DNA of 64,000 nt from Veillonella rodentium (GTDB lineage: Bacteria; Bacillota; Negativicutes; Veillonellales; Veillonellaceae), in contig NZ_LT906470.1 of NCBI RefSeq assembly GCF_900187285.1, forward strand, positions 231,501 through 295,500, read 5' to 3'. Position numbers and translations under genes: made by a program. Below the pieces are notes generated by a model. The model was not told the origin of the DNA, did not search any database, and was given only the letters and a program-made list of their open reading frames with translations. Positions 16,059-30,623 of the stretch are shown in pieces (position 1 is the first letter of the stretch; the number at the start of each line of letters is the position of its first letter).

Positions 16059-16188
16059 TATGTTGAAATAGGATGGTGAAAAATGTAAATTTGTTGTACA
16101 ATTTAATAATTGAAGCATGTATCTATAGATGTTTAGATAGATGTTTTCTTTTATTTGACTAAAAAAATAATAAATTTTAAATTAATGC

Positions 16189-16290
16189 TTGCATTATAAA
16201 AACAAAAGCAGTATAATCAACTTAACAAAAAGTAAAGTAAATTTTACATAAAGTAAATTAAAGTTTACTAAAAGTAAATTTGATTTAACT
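16189..16290 (+). promoter_or_regulatory. Promoter and repeated AAAGTAAA operator-like array
   Basis: TTGCAT (16189-16194), 17-bp spacer, TATAAT (16212-16217). Directly downstream (16227-16290) AAAGTAAA/TTTAC motifs recur at least four times, some as small inverted repeats (GTAAATTTTAC; GTAAATTAAAGTTTAC). The array lies in the 5' region of the Xre-type regulator gene, so autoregulation is likely (inference). Confidence 0.6.
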
Positions 16291-16341
16291 GAACGTGCAA
16301 TAGACTTTTCCGGATGCAAATTTTTATTTTATTGTAGTAAA

Positions 16342-16416
16342 TGTAAGACGTGTTGTATCGAATGTAAGCCGTGTTGTGTTGTATGTAAGGCGTGTTGTAT
16401 TGAATGCAAGAGTGTT
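16342..16416 (+). repeat. 21-bp tandem repeat encoding Cys-rich heptads in frame with the regulator
   Basis: About 3.6 copies of a 21-bp unit (TGTAAG(A/C/G)CGTGTTGTAT...). In the frame of the downstream helix-turn-helix gene they read as CKTCCIE, CKPCCVV, CKACCIE, CK. The frame is open from 16252 into the regulator but contains no ATG, GTG or TTG before 16462. Either it is untranslated DNA, or translation begins at a non-standard codon. Confidence 0.65.
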
Positions 16417-16488
16417 GAAGTCTGTTTTGAAATAGCAGATAGGTTTATTTCAAAACGACGGATGAGTAAAAGGGAGCAGTGGGAGAAA

Positions 16489-16683
16489 ATGGCAAACAGA
16501 ATAAAGCTTTATAGAACTATGTTGGGCTTATCTCAGCATGAATTAGCAGAAAAAGTAGGTGTTACTCGAGCGACTATCAATAGTATTGAAAATGGGAAAA
16601 CGATTCCTAGCTTAAAATTAGCTAATGATATAGCCGTAGTTCTCGGTAGAAGCATAAACGATGTATTTCATACATTGAACTAA
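16489..16683 (+). CDS. Xre/Cro-type helix-turn-helix regulator
   Basis: A 64-aa single-domain DNA-binding protein: NRIKLYRTMLGLSQHELAEKVGVTRATINSIENGKTIPSL, typical of small YgzD-like regulators of the Xre family. Homologous proteins start at about MxNRIK, matching ATG 16489 (GGGAG a few bases upstream). ATG 16462, in frame, is an alternative start. It lies 170 bp before the first peptide precursor and downstream of the AAAGTAAA array, so it is the likely regulator of the RiPP locus. Confidence 0.82.
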   Translation: MANRIKLYRTMLGLSQHELAEKVGVTRATINSIENGKTIPSLKLANDIAVVLGRSINDVFHTLN

Positions 16684-16771
16684 AAACGGAGATTAAATTT
16701 AATAACTGGTAGATAATAAACCTGCATTACTCATGACCACCGGGCAAAGGGCTGTTTCATAATATGTCAGC

Positions 16772-17048
16772 ACATATCTTTGTGAGATTTTTATGCTCGC
16801 AAGGAATATGTATAAAGCCTTGGATGTTGGAATACTGTGTGAATGGAGGTTTTATTATGTTATTTGCAAAACTTACTAACTCTGGTAACTGTTTCTCTAC
16901 TAAGTATGGTCTTATTATTATTAGCTATGGCGTACGTTGGCTTGGCTAAGAAGGATGTAATTTTAAACTTATTTGATTAGTTGAAGAAGGCTTAGTGAAT
17001 TATTATTCTAACGAGTTTACTGATTGAATGAGAGCCAACATCCAAGGC
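16772..17048 (+). other. RiPP unit 1: structured 5' hairpin plus ORF-enclosing helix
   Basis: A 5' hairpin is formed by ACATAT + CTTTGTGAG (16772-16786) pairing with CTCGCAAGG + ATATGT (16796-16811). It is followed by GCCTTGGATGTTGG (16817-16830), which is perfectly complementary to CCAACATCCAAGGC at 17035-17048, 204 nt further on. The precursor ORF lies inside this long-range pair. The same architecture recurs in units 2 and 3 with compensatory changes. Confidence 0.75.
16857..16949 (+). CDS. RiPP precursor peptide 1
   Basis: A 30-aa peptide with a strong ribosome site (GGAGG at 16845-16849). It starts MLFAKLTNSGNC and ends SYGVRWLG. The block MLF(S/A)KL..SGNC, a variable hydrophobic centre and SYG..W are shared with the other two precursors. 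It lacks their final AKGF, so it may be a variant or a decayed copy. It probably has a short leader of ~11 residues and a Cys-containing core. The radical SAM maturase downstream is the likely modifying enzyme. Confidence 0.75.
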   Translation: MLFAKLTNSGNCFSTKYGLIIISYGVRWLG

Positions 17049-17158
17049 ATCTTATTATGGCTTTATAGGATATCGATTTGACTCTTAGCACATAATGGTT
17101 TGCTATAGGTATAAGAAATTAGTGAGTAGTAAAATTATTTATCTCATATTATTTTGAT

Positions 17159-17432
17159 CATACTCTTTGTGAACTTTAAGTTCATAAAGAATATGCATAT
17201 AAGGTCTCGGATGCCGGAACACTGTGTGAATGGAGGGTTTACTATGTTATTCTCAAAACTTTTTAAATCTGGTAACTGTGTTTCTGTTGGTATAGGCATT
17301 GTTGCTGTTAGTTATGGTCCAAGTTGGGCAAAAGGCTTCTAATTGTCAACCTATTTAATCTATTTGATGAATTAAGACTTATAGTAATTTGTTTTAAGAT
17401 TGACTGATTAAATGAGTACTGGCATCCGAGGC
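17159..17432 (+). other. RiPP unit 2: structured 5' hairpin plus ORF-enclosing helix
   Basis: CATA (17159-17162) with TATG (17192-17195) and CTTTGTGAACTT (17165-17176) with AAGTTCATAAAG (17178-17189) form the 5' hairpin. GTCTCGGATGCCGG (17204-17217) pairs with CTGGCATCCGAGGC (17419-17432) over 14 bp including two G-U pairs, with 201 nt between the strands. Relative to unit 1, several helix positions have changed on both strands. Confidence 0.75.
17244..17342 (+). CDS. RiPP precursor peptide 2
   Basis: A 32-aa peptide: MLFSKLFKSGNC, then a Val/Ile/Gly-rich stretch, ending SYGPSWAKGF. GGAGGG precedes the ATG at 17244. The single Cys at position 12 and the C-terminal W-A-K-G-F are the obvious modification candidates. 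W-x-K is one of the tripeptide patterns joined by radical SAM cyclophane enzymes, as in darobactin (W-S-K). A Cys thioether, as in sactipeptides or ranthipeptides, is the alternative. Confidence 0.8.
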   Translation: MLFSKLFKSGNCVSVGIGIVAVSYGPSWAKGF

Positions 17433-17551
17433 ACTTTATTTTAAAATTGAGAGTATATCGGTTAATTTTTAGTAATTGATGAAATTATTATAAGTTATTC
17501 AAGATGAATATGTGTGGTATTTGATAATATTATTCAGTTTATATTTTTGAA

Positions 17552-17839
17552 CATACTCTTTGTGGAGTTTATGTTCGCAAGGAATATGTATAAGGTCTTG
17601 GATGGTAGTAAACACTGTGTGAATGGAGGAGTTTACTATGTTATTCTCAAAACTTACTAAATCCGGTAACTGTGTTTCTGCAGGTGTATGGTTTGTTAGC
17701 ATCAGTTACGGTCCAAAATGGGCGAAAGGCTTCTAATTCTTTATCAGTTTTATATTAGCTTTATATTGATAAGATAATTTATAGTACATTATTTTGATTT
17801 AGGTGTGTATATTGTCAGATAAAAGCTACCATTCAAGAC
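17552..17839 (+). other. RiPP unit 3: structured 5' hairpin plus ORF-enclosing helix
   Basis: The 5' hairpin is CATA (17552-17555) with TATG (17585-17588) and CTTTGTGGA with TTCGCAAGG. GTCTTGGATGGTAG (17595-17608) pairs with CTACCATTCAAGAC (17826-17839), 14 bp with one G-U, and 217 nt lie between. The unit spacing of ~390 bp makes the three units a diverged tandem repeat. Confidence 0.75.
17638..17736 (+). CDS. RiPP precursor peptide 3
   Basis: A 32-aa peptide: MLFSKLTKSGNC, a hydrophobic centre (SAGVWFVSI), ending SYGPKWAKGF. GGAGGAG lies 7 bases before the ATG. It is very similar to precursor 2 at both ends and differs mainly in the centre, as expected for a duplicated precursor family. 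The CPBP protease gene starts about 200 bp downstream. Confidence 0.8.
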   Translation: MLFSKLTKSGNCVSAGVWFVSISYGPKWAKGF

Positions 17840-17938
17840 TCTTCATTTTAATAGTTCTATTCAATGATTATGTTTAGTTTTGTTGATACGTTGATGTTAA
17901 TAATAAAATAAATAGTTTGTTATAAAGGATTGAGATCA

Positions 17939-18556
17939 ATGAATCAAATTAAGGAAGATAAGGAGAAGTTATATATAAATTTTGTTGTTCTATCTGTATT
18001 TCCAGTTGTTTTAACACTTGTTGCAGGTTTAATAATAGATCTTCTTATCGGCGATTTACGATATGGTCACTTCTCCGCTTTGATTACCGTTTGGATAAGT
18101 ATGATTATTGGAATGGTAATTTTCCCGGTGATTTATTTACGCCAAAATGATAAAGAGGTATGTAATTTATCTGATTTAGGGCTAGTTATTGATTTACCGA
18201 TGGATGGTATAATTATAGGTCTTTTGATTGTATCTCTTATAATAGTAAAAACAATATTTTTAGGAGGCGATATTGTCTTTGCCCTTATGCAGAACATACC
18301 GATTGCTTTTTGTGAGGAGTTCTGGAGTAAGGGCGTTCTTTTTACCCAATTAAGACAAATATTCAGGAATGATTATATTGTCATTGGAATAGCGGCAATG
18401 GTTTTTGCTTTTATAACACATATGGGTAATAGCTTTGTAGACAATCTTGTGCTTAGATTTCCTTTCGGATTAATTGCCGGATTCATTTATTATAAAACAG
18501 GAAAGCTAGCGTATCCTGTTTTACTACATTTAATATATAATGCAATGATTGTTTGA
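17939..18556 (+). CDS. CPBP-family intramembrane metalloprotease
   Basis: A 205-aa, six- to seven-helix membrane protein. The family motifs are present: CEEFWSKG (the EExxx(R/K)G pair, residues ~121-128), FAFITHMG (FxxxH) and HLIYNA (HxxxN/D) at the C terminus. CPBP (Abi/CAAX-type) proteases often remove leader peptides or give self-immunity in peptide-antibiotic loci. AAAGGA precedes ATG 17939. A TTG 9 bases earlier in the same frame is less likely. It starts the biosynthetic operon after the three precursors. Confidence 0.85.
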   Translation: MNQIKEDKEKLYINFVVLSVFPVVLTLVAGLIIDLLIGDLRYGHFSALITVWISMIIGMVIFPVIYLRQNDKEVCNLSDLGLVIDLPMDGIIIGLLIVSLIIVKTIFLGGDIVFALMQNIPIAFCEEFWSKGVLFTQLRQIFRNDYIVIGIAAMVFAFITHMGNSFVDNLVLRFPFGLIAGFIYYKTGKLAYPVLLHLIYNAMIV

Positions 18557-18598
18557 TGTAAAATGGTAACCATTATTAATGATTCGAGGAGGCCGATT

Positions 18599-19015
18599 AT
18601 GAAAAAATATGTTTTTATATTGTCTCTTGTATATCTTCTCAGTATATTGGCCCTTACGGTATATACTGATCAATTCAATGGGTTGTCTGTTTTGGGTATT
18701 CTTGTAGCTCAAATTTTTATATCGATTATTCTTTTGTTTCTTTTCAGAAATCAAGCAAAACAACATTTGAGGACATTGGCTGGATTAAATGTTGCTTTTT
18801 TTGCAGTATATAGCATTTTACAGAATTTCTTTATCTTAACAGGCAGCAGACTTGAAACTATTCTGGCAAATAGTAATTTTATAAATAGTAATAATGTGAC
18901 CGTACAAGCTAACAATCCAATAGAAGATACTATTACCGGCATCGTTATTTTCGTGATTTTACATTGGTTTGTTACCTATCGATTAAGTAGAGCAAAGAAA
19001 GATGAAACGGTTTAG
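18599..19015 (+). CDS. Small integral membrane protein of the RiPP locus
   Basis: A 138-aa protein with four likely transmembrane helices (MKKYVFILSLVYLLSILAL; LGILVAQIFISIILLFLF; LNVAFFAVYSILQNFFIL; GIVIFVILHWFVTYRL). No family is recognised. GAGGAGG before ATG 18599 decides the start. Its last 14 bases overlap the ABC transporter gene. Immunity or an accessory export function is plausible from position only. Confidence 0.7.
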   Translation: MKKYVFILSLVYLLSILALTVYTDQFNGLSVLGILVAQIFISIILLFLFRNQAKQHLRTLAGLNVAFFAVYSILQNFFILTGSRLETILANSNFINSNNVTVQANNPIEDTITGIVIFVILHWFVTYRLSRAKKDETV

Positions 19016-20735
19016 CTTACTCTTTCAAAAACCGTTAATGGCGATAAGTTCATTAACGCTAGCCATCCTTTATGCAATTGCGTTGCCGGCATTAGCGCTG
19101 TTAATACAATGGATTACTAATACTTTGGTTGAAAAACAGGAAATCAGTTCCGCTCAGGTAATGATATCTTTAGGATTTGCAGTGGCTGTTCTTGGCATAT
19201 CGGCTTTATATGTATATGTAAAGGATCGATTGATAAATTCTATAATACGAATGGAAAAGAACCGTATTTTTACAGAAGTATTTAGTAAGAATATAAGTGA
19301 TTTCCGTAAGAATAATACATCCGTTTATACATCTGTTCTCAATCAAGATATTTATATTATTGAAGATGATTATTTTGAGACCCTGTATAGTATTGTCGGT
19401 GGCATAGCTACAGTTATTGCTGCATTTGTTATTATGTGGTTTATATACTATAAAATTATCTTTATTATGCTAGGGTTAGTTATAGCAGGCTTGATCATCC
19501 CTAACTTATTAGGCACTAAGATGGGGAAGTATAAGAACGAATATCTCGTCAGTTTTGGACAGTTTAATGGTGTTATAAAGGATTATTTTAATGCTTTTGA
19601 AGTCATCAAGGCTTATCGTGTATTGGTAAATGTTATAAATTCGTTTGGCCGATATAATAATGCACTTGAAAGTAAAAGACTGAAAAGTAAGTTGTTCGAA
19701 GATATTGTTTTGGTTGTTTCTAATTTTGCCGCATTTATGTTGAGCTTGGCAATGTTTCTCATATGTGCCTATTACGTGAGTATAAATGAAATACGTGTGG
19801 GCGATATGGTTGCCGTTGTGCAACTTTCCAACAGTATTATGAGCCCTATTATGATGATATTGTTGTCATTGGGGCGTGTCATTTCGGCAAAAAAAGTATG
19901 GAATAATATCGATGAGATCAAGTTGCGAAAATCTGGTGTTCATGATATTGATATCGATAAACTACATGATACTGATCGGATTCAATTCAGTAAAAGTATA
20001 GAATTTAAAGATGTCAGTTTTGCTTATCCGGGAAAAGAGCAGAATACACTTCAGGATATCAACATAGCATTCGAGAAAGGTAAAAAGTACGCAATCGTAG
20101 GCATGTCCGGAAGCGGGAAAACGACTTTATTAAAGATGATTTTGCGTTATTTTGATAACTATTCAGGCTCTATATCTATTGATGGATACGAATACAGTAA
20201 GATTGATGATGAATCCGTGTATGATAATATCACATATATGCAGCAGCATAGTGTGATGTTCAATGATACGTTGGAATACAATTTAACGTTGGGTAACACG
20301 GTTTCCGATAACTTATTGGATCAGGCTATTGATAAAGCAAATCTGAGAAAGACAGTTGATAAATTAGCTAAAGGACTTAAAACGATTGTTCAGGAGAACG
20401 GAATAAATTTCTCCGGTGGAGAGAAAAAGCGTATTGAAATATGCAGAGCGCTTTTAAAGAAATCGGATATTGTTATAGTTGATGAGTTCTCGTTCGGACT
20501 CGATAATCTTACTGCTAAAATATTGGAACGCGAGCTGGTGGGACTTGATGCAACGGTTATCAATGTTACGCACTTCTTGGATGAAGATATCTTGAGATTA
20601 TATGATGAAATTATTGTATTAGAGGACGGCAGCATTCGAGAAGTCGGATGTTTTGATGAATTGTACGATAATGGGTCTTTATTCTACCGACTAATAGAAA
20701 AAGGAGGAGAAGTGAATGAGCAACATGCTTCATGA
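19002..20735 (+). CDS. ABC exporter (fused membrane and ATPase domains)
   Basis: A 577-aa half-transporter. Residues 1-~300 form a six-helix ABC membrane domain. Residues ~335-570 form the ATPase, with Walker A GMSGSGKTTLLK (~366), signature FSGGEKKRIEICRALL (~469), and Walker B IVIVDEFSFGLD. It has no C39 peptidase domain, so leader cleavage must be done by another enzyme, such as the CPBP protease. It is translationally coupled to the genes on both sides. The likely role is export of the mature peptides or self-protection. Confidence 0.9.
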   Translation: MKRFSLLFQKPLMAISSLTLAILYAIALPALALLIQWITNTLVEKQEISSAQVMISLGFAVAVLGISALYVYVKDRLINSIIRMEKNRIFTEVFSKNISDFRKNNTSVYTSVLNQDIYIIEDDYFETLYSIVGGIATVIAAFVIMWFIYYKIIFIMLGLVIAGLIIPNLLGTKMGKYKNEYLVSFGQFNGVIKDYFNAFEVIKAYRVLVNVINSFGRYNNALESKRLKSKLFEDIVLVVSNFAAFMLSLAMFLICAYYVSINEIRVGDMVAVVQLSNSIMSPIMMILLSLGRVISAKKVWNNIDEIKLRKSGVHDIDIDKLHDTDRIQFSKSIEFKDVSFAYPGKEQNTLQDINIAFEKGKKYAIVGMSGSGKTTLLKMILRYFDNYSGSISIDGYEYSKIDDESVYDNITYMQQHSVMFNDTLEYNLTLGNTVSDNLLDQAIDKANLRKTVDKLAKGLKTIVQENGINFSGGEKKRIEICRALLKKSDIVIVDEFSFGLDNLTAKILERELVGLDATVINVTHFLDEDILRLYDEIIVLEDGSIREVGCFDELYDNGSLFYRLIEKGGEVNEQHAS

Positions 20736-21951
20736 TAGGACTTATTTATTTAATGTCAAAGGTGTAAACATCATCGGCAATGGTGATAATGGTGCAATAA
20801 TCGGTCTGGATGACGAGGGATTAAATTTTATTGATAAAATTAAACAGGGCAAGCTCGGTGAATGTAGTCTAAGTGATAAAGAGAAACAGATTATGACGGC
20901 TTTGAATGAGCTCGGTTATTTTACGAGATCTGCCGGCAACTTGAATACTGCCTATCTCCACGTGACAGATCGATGTAATTTAAGCTGTGTTGGGTGTTAT
21001 TCTTTCATAGAAAATCGTAACTCACAAAAGGATTTATCTACTGAAGAATTATTAAATATTGTCGATCAACTGGCGGAATGTGGTGTCAAAGGAATAACCA
21101 TATCCGGTGGGGAACCTTTTTTGAGAACCGATATGCCACAAATACTCGAACGCATTAAGAAGCATAATATGTATGCTGCAGCGATTACAAACGGTACAAT
21201 GGACTGGGATCGGGTTAAAGAAGCCCTTCCGTACCTTGATGTTTTGAATGTGTCGGTGGACGGATATAATAGGGAAACACGGTTTATCAGAAATGACGGT
21301 ATAATGGATAAGGTATTGGATTTCGTTGAACATTTCAAAGATTTTATCCCTGTCAATCTAGTGTTTACTTTGCACAAGAAAAATGTTGAATATATGAAAG
21401 AATATATTCAACTTGCAAACGAATTAAATGTATCTTCTAATTTTAGTATATTCTCAGTAGACCCGCACGATGAAACGTTTTCCGGTTTCGTTTTAGATGA
21501 AAGTGATCTTGGTAAGATTTCAAAGTTCGTTAATGACGTAGAGGGTGTTTACATTGAAGATAGTGTTATTAACGGACAGAGTGACGGCCTTGACGGATTA
21601 GGATGCAAAGTCGGTTGTGGTCTAGGGTGCGGTATAGTCAGTGTTGCCGCTAACGGAGATGTTTTTCCTTGTCATATGCTACATAAAGAGGAGATGAAAA
21701 TGGGCAGTCTTAAGACTGATTCTTTGAAGAACATTCTTAAGAATAAAGAAGCAAAGTGGTCCGGAATAACGGTAGATGATATTTCAGACTGCAGTGACTG
21801 TGAATATAAATATATGTGTGGCGGCGGCTGTCGCGGCAGATCCTATTTATATCACAAAGCTTTAGAGCATAAAGATCCGTTCTGTACATTGACAAAACTA
21901 TACTTGAATAAACGCACAAAGATTTTTGAACAGATTGCTCAGCAAGCATAA
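20716..21951 (+). CDS. Radical SAM/SPASM peptide maturase
   Basis: A 411-aa protein with three parts. The N-terminal ~75 residues resemble the PqqD-like RiPP recognition fold. The radical SAM core has C87-NLS-C91-VG-C94 (CxxxCxxC for the 4Fe-4S/SAM cluster) and the SGGEPFLR segment. The C-terminal SPASM-type region has many cysteines (GCKVGCGLGC, DVFPCH, DCSDCEYKYMCGGGCRGR and PFC) for two auxiliary clusters. Such enzymes install thioether or C-C crosslinks in ribosomal peptides. It overlaps the ABC gene by 20 bp and ends the operon. Confidence 0.92.
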   Translation: MSNMLHDRTYLFNVKGVNIIGNGDNGAIIGLDDEGLNFIDKIKQGKLGECSLSDKEKQIMTALNELGYFTRSAGNLNTAYLHVTDRCNLSCVGCYSFIENRNSQKDLSTEELLNIVDQLAECGVKGITISGGEPFLRTDMPQILERIKKHNMYAAAITNGTMDWDRVKEALPYLDVLNVSVDGYNRETRFIRNDGIMDKVLDFVEHFKDFIPVNLVFTLHKKNVEYMKEYIQLANELNVSSNFSIFSVDPHDETFSGFVLDESDLGKISKFVNDVEGVYIEDSVINGQSDGLDGLGCKVGCGLGCGIVSVAANGDVFPCHMLHKEEMKMGSLKTDSLKNILKNKEAKWSGITVDDISDCSDCEYKYMCGGGCRGRSYLYHKALEHKDPFCTLTKLYLNKRTKIFEQIAQQA

Positions 21952-27342: not shown

Positions 27343-27470
27343 TGATTGCATGATTGCATGATTGCATGATTGCATGATTGCATGATTGCATGATTGCATG
27401 ATTGCATGATTGCATGATTGCATGATTGCATGATTGCATGATTGCATGATTGCATGATTGCATGATTGCA
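27343..27470. repeat. Octanucleotide tandem repeat, 16 perfect copies of TGATTGCA
   Basis: 128 bp of uninterrupted 8-bp repeat, followed by one broken copy (TGATGCA). It starts 6 bp after the ileS stop. Perfect copies of this length usually change number by slippage. There is no gene over it. The minus-strand frame through it is just repeat translation. Confidence 0.97.
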
Positions 27471-27544
27471 TGATGCAGATTAATCGTTATAAAAAATTTT
27501 AGAGAATAGATTAATATCAGTTACTCTTATTCTGATGTATATAG

Positions 27545-29989: not shown

Positions 29990-30138
29990 ATTTATTATAT
30001 ACCGTCATAGAAAAACGTAGAAGTAGAAGAAACCAACCTGTTCAAAAAGCCTCCGAGGCCAACGCTACGCCGCCAAGTCGTTTTTTGAACAGGTTGGTTC
30101 CTCTCTCTTGGTACGCAATCTGACGGTATATAATAAAT
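29990..30138. repeat. Palindromic repeat C, 149-bp near-symmetric element
   Basis: The outer arms ATTTATTATATACCGTCA (29990-30007) and their complement (30121-30138) are perfect. The inner arms AACCAACCTGTTCAAAAA (30031-30048) and their complement (30082-30099) are also perfect, with imperfect pairing between them. The centre holds the shared core (GCCTCCGAGGCC...GCCGCCAAGTCG, with GCCAAGTCG at 30072-30080). It lies directly upstream of the Sel1/TPR gene. Confidence 0.85.
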
Positions 30139-30470
30139 AATTTATCTAAAAATCGGTGCCATGCCCGACCGTCGGGGAGAAACGCCAAGTCGTTTTTAGA
30201 GAGAACCCCATCACTGCAAACTACGGTTGGAGTTGCAGTAAATAATAAATATAAAATTTCTAAAGACCGTCGGGAGAAGCGTATTAGCGATACAAACAAA
30301 ATAAACCTTTAGCGGTGGCCGTAGGTAGATAGAAAAATAAAGACACCTTTTGAAAAATGACTTGGCATACCGTTTTTCCTCCTATACAAAACAATAACCC
30401 TATTTGCTGTAGTTTGTAAAAAAAATAAATCCTCGAGGAAAACGACTTGGCGGCTCCTAAAAACGCGTTA
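30139..30470. repeat. Degenerate repeats D1-D3 with the same core
   Basis: D1: arms CTAAAAA/TTTTTAG (30146-30152, 30193-30199) around GCCAAGTCG at 30184-30192. D2: core TGACTTGGC at 30358-30366, keeping a left arm TAAAGACACCTTTTGAAAA but no matching right arm. D3: core CGACTTGGC at 30443-30451. A separate small hairpin ACTGCAA/TTGCAGT is at 30213-30239. No gene is present. Confidence 0.7.
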
Positions 30471-30551
30471 GCGATACAAACAAAATAAACCTTTAGCGGT
30501 GGTCATAGGTAGATAGAAAAAATAAAGACACCTCTTGAAAAATGACTTGGC
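30279..30551. repeat. 88-bp direct repeat (two copies)
   Basis: The segment 30279-30366 (from GCGTATTAGCGATACAAAC to the core CTTGGC) recurs at about 30464-30551 with only a few differences. Both copies end at the palindromic-repeat core, so the pair looks like a duplication that carried the left half of repeat D4. Confidence 0.8.
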
Positions 30552-30593
30552 GCCGAAGGGGTGGCCTCGGAGGCTTTTCAAGAGGTGTCTTTA
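30523..30593. repeat. Palindromic repeat D4, probably also the terminator of the binding-protein gene
   Basis: 19-bp perfect arms TAAAGACACCTCTTGAAAA (30523-30541) and complement (30575-30593) enclose TGACTTGGCGCCGAAGGGGTGGCCTCGGAGGC. Read on the minus strand it follows the 30624-31406 gene and ends in TATTTTTT, so it can act as a terminator. Confidence 0.85.
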
Positions 30594-30623
30594 TTGATAG
30601 CGTACTAAGCGCACGTTAAAGGG

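Follow-up and report, generated by a model that had tools for sequence, protein, structure and literature searches.

The locus considered here, in Veillonella rodentium, carries three tandem small open reading frames (ORFs), each enclosed by a 14-bp helix (P2) formed between a segment of the leader and a segment beyond the stop codon. This raises the question of whether P2 is a selected structure, whether it belongs to the RNA or to the DNA, and what it might do for the genes that it encloses. The window, i.e., the whole 64-kb stretch of DNA that was analyzed, lies in a genome of 2.04 Mb on a single contig; the features described below are all on its plus strand and are given in window positions.

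The gene cluster and the leader hairpin P1

The cluster spans positions 16462–21951 and encodes an XRE-type regulator (HTH_3), the products of the three ORFs, a CPBP membrane protease, a 150-aa protein, an ABC exporter, and a radical SAM/SPASM protein. The three ORFs, recognized from their reading frames and translations, are MLFAKLTNSGNCFSTKYGLIIISYGVRWLG (ORF 1, 16857–16949), MLFSKLFKSGNCVSVGIGIVAVSYGPSWAKGF (ORF 2, 17244–17342), and MLFSKLTKSGNCVSAGVWFVSISYGPKWAKGF (ORF 3, 17638–17736); they encode 30–32 aa each, lie upstream of the CPBP, ABC-transporter, and radical-SAM genes, have MLFxKLxxSGNCxS...SYG in common, and matched no family in Pfam or NCBIfam. A Shine–Dalgarno sequence, GGAGG, is found in unit 1 at 16845–16849, and the leader sequence CTGTGTGAATGGAGG occurs as an exact copy in all three window units. 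The CPBP (Rce1-like) membrane protease gene (17930–18556) was assigned through PF02517 (E 1.4e-14), and the ABC exporter gene (19002–20735) through PF00005 and PF00664, the exporter remaining under the cut-off of each NCBIfam exporter family listed. The radical SAM/SPASM peptide maturase gene (20716–21951) carries PF04055 and PF13186, and its product is 98% identical to a protein of Veillonella denticariosi JCM 15641; the top NCBIfam match, the StsB sactipeptide maturase, scores 122 bits, far under the cut-off of 625 that membership of the Streptosactin/StsB family would require. Judged by its gene content, with short putative precursor ORFs beside radical SAM/SPASM maturase and exporter genes, the locus is organized like a radical-SAM RiPP cluster.

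Ahead of the XRE gene lie two groups of direct repeats (16210–16293 and 16332–16417) with a spacing of exactly 21 bp, i.e., two helical turns; these are possibly regulator-binding sites. The second group, whose number of copies is different in V. denticariosi and in the single-unit relative G012, can equally be read as a CKxCCxx frame rich in Cys. Elsewhere in the window, a perfect 8-bp tandem repeat, TGATTGCA, runs for 16.5 copies (27343–27474) directly after a gene that reads as isoleucyl-tRNA synthetase.

Each window unit contains a predicted hairpin, P1, located 6–8 nt ahead of the P2 5' arm, at 16773–16810 in unit 1, 17159–17195 in unit 2, and 17552–17588 in unit 3. P1 is present in 7/7 units of the comparative set described below and is more stable as sense than as antisense RNA (−13.3 vs −5.7 kcal/mol in unit 1), with unit 2 as a near-exception (−15.1 vs −14.7); the unit 2 hairpin is identical in V. 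denticariosi at 38/38 positions over 17158–17195. The P1 pairs hold mainly by G·U, plus some two-sided changes, as counted on bulge-trimmed arms, hence in a manner that favors structure.

Pairing and conservation of P2

In unit 1, the 5' arm GCCTTGGATGTTGG (16817–16830) and the 3' arm CCAACATCCAAGGC (17035–17048) form 14 of 14 pairs. The same holds for GTCTCGGATGCCGG (17204–17217) and CTGGCATCCGAGGC (17419–17432) in unit 2, with two G·U pairs, and for GTCTTGGATGGTAG (17595–17608) and CTACCATTCAAGAC (17826–17839) in unit 3, with one; the last of these arms is identical in V. denticariosi. The complementary 14-nt segments that the preliminary description had placed upstream of the ribosome site and beyond the stop are thus found in all three units, and each 5' arm is matched by its own downstream strand as claimed, albeit with wobble at positions 2 and 13 in unit 2 and at position 7 in unit 3. 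Helix positions 2, 5, 11, 12, and 13 indeed differ between copies, position 11 being U-A, C-G, and G-C, and position 7, which had been overlooked, varies as well (G-C or G·U). In units 1, 2, and 3, the 5' arm is separated from the AUG by 26, 26, and 29 nt, and the stop from the 3' arm by 85, 76, and 89 nt, so that the arms lie 215–231 nt apart from start to start and enclose a loop of about 201–217 nt.

When the plus strand of the window was scanned exhaustively for helices with 14/14 pairs, at most two G·U, and arms 150–260 nt apart, the three P2 helices ranked 1, 2, and 5 by energy; the two other matches at or above rank 5 lie at 7.55 kb and, within a repeat cluster, at 30.2 kb. The latter region (30028–30595) is an intergenic cluster of direct and inverted repeats with arms of 21–61 nt and is the source of other strong long-range helices. 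The predicted pair probabilities of P2 are 0.88–1.00 when the units are folded singly, and average 0.98–1.00 when the three units are joined as one RNA of 1,089 nt. The 5' arm of unit 1 could also pair 14/14 with the 3' arm of unit 2 (−21.1 kcal/mol), but self-pairing dominates in this tricistronic fold. Predicted folding energies are −73 to −78 kcal/mol for the sense units, with z-scores of −2.6 to −4.5, versus −41 to −56 kcal/mol for the antisense.

The comparative set consists of only seven units in the genomes searched, several of which are close orthologues. P2 is complete (14/14) in six of these, from three species, and three of the six are out of sample: the single unit of G012, whose arms GCCTTGAATGGTGG and CCACCATTTAAGGC form 14/14 pairs with one G·U, and units 2 and 3 of the three in V. 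denticariosi. In V. denticariosi unit 1 (L043:4592–4800), the ORF and the 5' arm are intact and the 3' arm has been deleted, the deletion beginning near the ORF end. The orphan 5' arm, GCCTTAAATGGTGG, is perfectly complementary to the 3' arm of G012, a match suggesting that until recently this unit was constrained to pair; since its ORF is intact without a 3' arm, not every unit can depend on the helix. The loss of the downstream strand in relatives, named in the preliminary description as a refuting observation, is therefore seen in this one unit, with 14/14 pairs in the relatives' other units. The precursor ORFs of V. denticariosi have diverged more rapidly than the CPBP gene beside them (82/99 and 91/99 vs 601/618 identical).

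Over the six complete units, 84/84 cells form standard pairs; seven pairs are invariant, one varies on one side, and six have changed on both sides. The non-Watson–Crick cells number six (five of them independent), and all are G·U on the coding strand, with no A·C, which argues for selection at the level of the sense RNA rather than of a DNA cassette. In shuffles, 0/500 attained the observed number of paired cells, the count of double-change cells, or the covariation score, and 26/500 attained the number of pairs with a double change. Because relatedness between units can by itself resemble covariation, the arms were also simulated without pairing constraint along a tree derived from the remainder of the unit sequences, the extent of change being scaled to that observed and kappa set to 2, 4, and 8; none of 60,000 simulations gave 84/84, the null means being 66–70. 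By plain permutation of the 3' arms, 4/720 orders reach 84. Furthermore, RNAalifold recovered P2 and P1 unaided from the full 325-column alignment, and the 3' arms are identical between orthologues at 27/28 positions, against 128/156 for the stretch from the stop to the 3' arm. The earlier reading of P2 as a selected structure is accordingly upheld, and this extends out of sample to two further species. On these comparisons, P2 is almost certainly a selected structure of the sense RNA, and very probably a working one that protects or controls the message.

Distribution of the element

A radical SAM search of 380 genomes of the class gave three matches, all in Veillonella, and thereby the cluster in two further genomes; the element is known from 3/14 Veillonella species searched and was encountered in no other genome covered by the searches. 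The corresponding search of genome contigs returned one locus, that of viral contigs no match, and that of plasmids one distant match, in Streptococcus salivarius. One precursor sequence, compared with 398 genomes of the phylum, found itself only, and a covariance model of the leader, run on 28 genomes of the family, gave strong matches to the seven known units alone; we take its weaker matches (E of about 0.01 and up) as chance or as antisense echoes of P1. Two further candidates were set aside: 15-mer leader matches in viral contigs, to which the leader model gave no match, and clostridial plasmid clusters with similar exporters, in which no radical SAM gene is annotated beside the exporter.

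The S. salivarius plasmid (NZ_CP018188.1) encodes a related precursor, identical at 14/22 positions over the core, and a related CPBP protein (30%). The precursor relative is an unannotated 36-aa ORF, MLKFSTKKTKKAGCVSVGALVSVSIGHYIKEVKSTV (L069:2583–2693), followed downstream by the CPBP gene, by a radical SAM gene into which lnu(C)/ISSag10 has inserted and which is thereby split, and by ABC genes. No long helix comparable to P2 was found in this plasmid cluster, and P2 thus looks as if it had been added, in Veillonella, to a more widespread type of cluster.

Possible functions of P2

A long helix between the 5'UTR and the 3'UTR of one mRNA, the defining feature of closed-loop mRNAs, is present at 14/14 in six units with covariation. 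In the hbs mRNA of Bacillus subtilis, pairing of 14 nt between the 5'UTR and the 3'UTR is described as blocking RNase Y (Braun et al. 2017, as described in PMC7821165). Given this precedent and the presence of RNase Y and RNase III genes in the V. rodentium genome, the reading that we favor, though tentatively, is that P2 may close each precursor mRNA into a 5'UTR–3'UTR loop that stabilizes or insulates it; this is ranked ahead of translation control, termination, and RNase III processing, in that order. The circularization or stabilization of RNA proposed in the preliminary description is thereby retained, and its alternative of translation control, taken as burial of the ribosome site, proved inconsistent across units.

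In the unit RNA, the 5'UTR and the 3'UTR would pair over 14 bp just behind P1, leaving the precursor ORF and its ribosome site in the loop. Given the size of the ribosome footprint, a ribosome that initiates or terminates on the ORF need not touch P2; with arms 26–29 nt before the AUG and 76–89 nt past the stop, P2 can therefore coexist with translation. P2 would most likely keep RNase Y and 3' exonucleases from attacking the leader and the 3' side, and the outcome would be a stable, insulated precursor mRNA, commoner than the mRNAs of the downstream enzymes; a U-rich tract in some units may add partial termination. The comparisons above show the helix itself, its conservation, the covariation, and the strand specificity, whereas the function of P2, the transcript ends, the stabilization, and the enzymes involved are what we infer. 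The likeness to hbs lies in a 14-nt UTR–UTR pairing on the mRNA of a small protein and in an RNase Y gene common to both organisms. However, the Veillonella helix recurs around each of three tandem precursors of RiPP type, has a hairpin ahead of it, and covaries unit by unit, and protection would here be presumed by analogy. To our knowledge, the two helices are not homologous.

Among the alternatives, it is unlikely that P2 acts in the manner of hok, AapA, or icaR, in which a 5'–3' helix keeps the full-length mRNA translationally silent as long as the helix stays closed and the 3' end untrimmed. The hok/AapA type I toxin mRNAs resemble the Veillonella units in that a short hydrophobic peptide ORF lies inside a long-range helix and occurs in several copies, and the Veillonella ORFs are likewise short tandem peptides, similar to AapA. 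The precedent requires a long 5'–3' interaction (PMC6733600), and covariation has been reported for the hok family (Gultyaev 1997, as cited in PMC6733600). In G012, moreover, the ribosome site is predicted to be fully paired to the 3'UTR, and a YCUY motif in the 5' arm can pair with GGAGG in unit 1 and G012 when the 3' arm is omitted. However, the Shine–Dalgarno sequence is not covered by the P2 arms, and in 5/6 units the ribosome site pairs with the 3'UTR no more than with a shuffled 3'UTR. In hok/AapA, the ribosome site is buried by the helix and there is an antisense RNA, whereas the Veillonella ribosome site lies outside the helix with no conserved burial predicted. With burial in one of six units, and with anti-Shine–Dalgarno pairing not conserved but confined to two leaders, for which reason a switch through the 5' arm was dropped as a general mechanism, there is no support for a hok/AapA-type block as the function shared by the units. 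A search of the window against Rfam at the gathering threshold found no known RNA family. A promoter scan, relevant also to a possible antisense RNA antitoxin, gave promoter-like sites no more often than in shuffles. Staphylococcus aureus icaR and RNAIII (hld) also pair UTR with UTR within one mRNA, and RNAIII encloses a short peptide ORF; icaR, however, relies on an anti-Shine–Dalgarno UCCCC motif and on decay by RNase III, neither of which is seen in the Veillonella units.

Less likely again is that P2 serves as an intrinsic terminator with the whole ORF as its loop, which, with a U-rich tract within a few nucleotides of the 3' arm, would yield much precursor mRNA and little read-through into the enzyme genes. 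Every 3' arm is followed by such a tract, near-identical between orthologues and at the 71st–99th percentile of local non-coding sequence by U-tract score. In unit 2 it is ACTTTATTTTAA (17433–17444; 12/12 identical in V. denticariosi, 96th percentile) and in unit 3 TCTTCATTTTAA (17840–17851; 11/12 identical, only the 71st percentile). No compact terminator-like hairpin was found at 16100–18000, and the S. salivarius relative has a compact hairpin with a U-tract at the same place, between the precursor and the CPBP gene. Of the G+C-rich stem and the directly adjoining run of U that mark an intrinsic terminator, the stem is present, and the U-tracts are interrupted and moderate; a loop of about 201–217 nt is atypical of terminators, which have short loops. 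Furthermore, G012 carries a strong compact terminator between its precursor unit and the CPBP gene (L042:1940–2011; −30.8 kcal/mol, z −7.6, followed by T7), approximately 50–120 nt past P2 and absent from the window; a terminator role for P2 is therefore unnecessary in G012. In some units, P2 may terminate transcription as a secondary function. It is doubtful, and rated below termination as such, that each precursor gene forms an RNA cassette complete in itself, whose single helix both closes the coding region and, with the U-rich tail, ends the transcript. If this were true, the 3' end would be sealed to the leader and the precursor-to-enzyme ratio of the RiPP cluster would be set.

Lower still in probability is a processing stem, similar to those of pre-rRNA, in which RNase III would cut P1 and P2 and free monocistronic precursor mRNAs from a polycistronic transcript. 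The tandem units with a helix each, the RNase III gene, and the prevalence of own-arm pairing in the joined transcript are consistent with it; a helix of 14 bp, however, is short for RNase III, and G012 retains P2 with no second unit to be separated from. Finally, the DNA-cassette boundary raised in the preliminary description, with the arms as inverted repeats bounding a recombining or inverting cassette, is highly improbable, since, although the arms flank each unit and one V. denticariosi unit has been shortened by deletion, at the DNA level the arms of units 2 and 3 deviate from identity at 1–2 positions that are each a sense G·U, as are six of six departures overall, RNA pairing is kept by covariation, and no inverted ORF is seen in relatives.

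Among bacterial mRNAs, few 5'UTR–3'UTR interactions have been described, and their wider applicability to other genes has been called open (PMC7821165). The literature searched contained no paper on this element and none linking such a structure to the expression of RiPP precursors. For the 5'UTR–3'UTR pairing through P2, the comparative support is strong, and the pairing is repeated within one locus in unit-specific sequences, so that compensatory mutants are already suggested by nature. Closed loops between UTRs are known from a handful of bacterial mRNAs; what is new in Veillonella is the setting, in which tandem RiPP precursors are each provided with a covarying helix and a hairpin.
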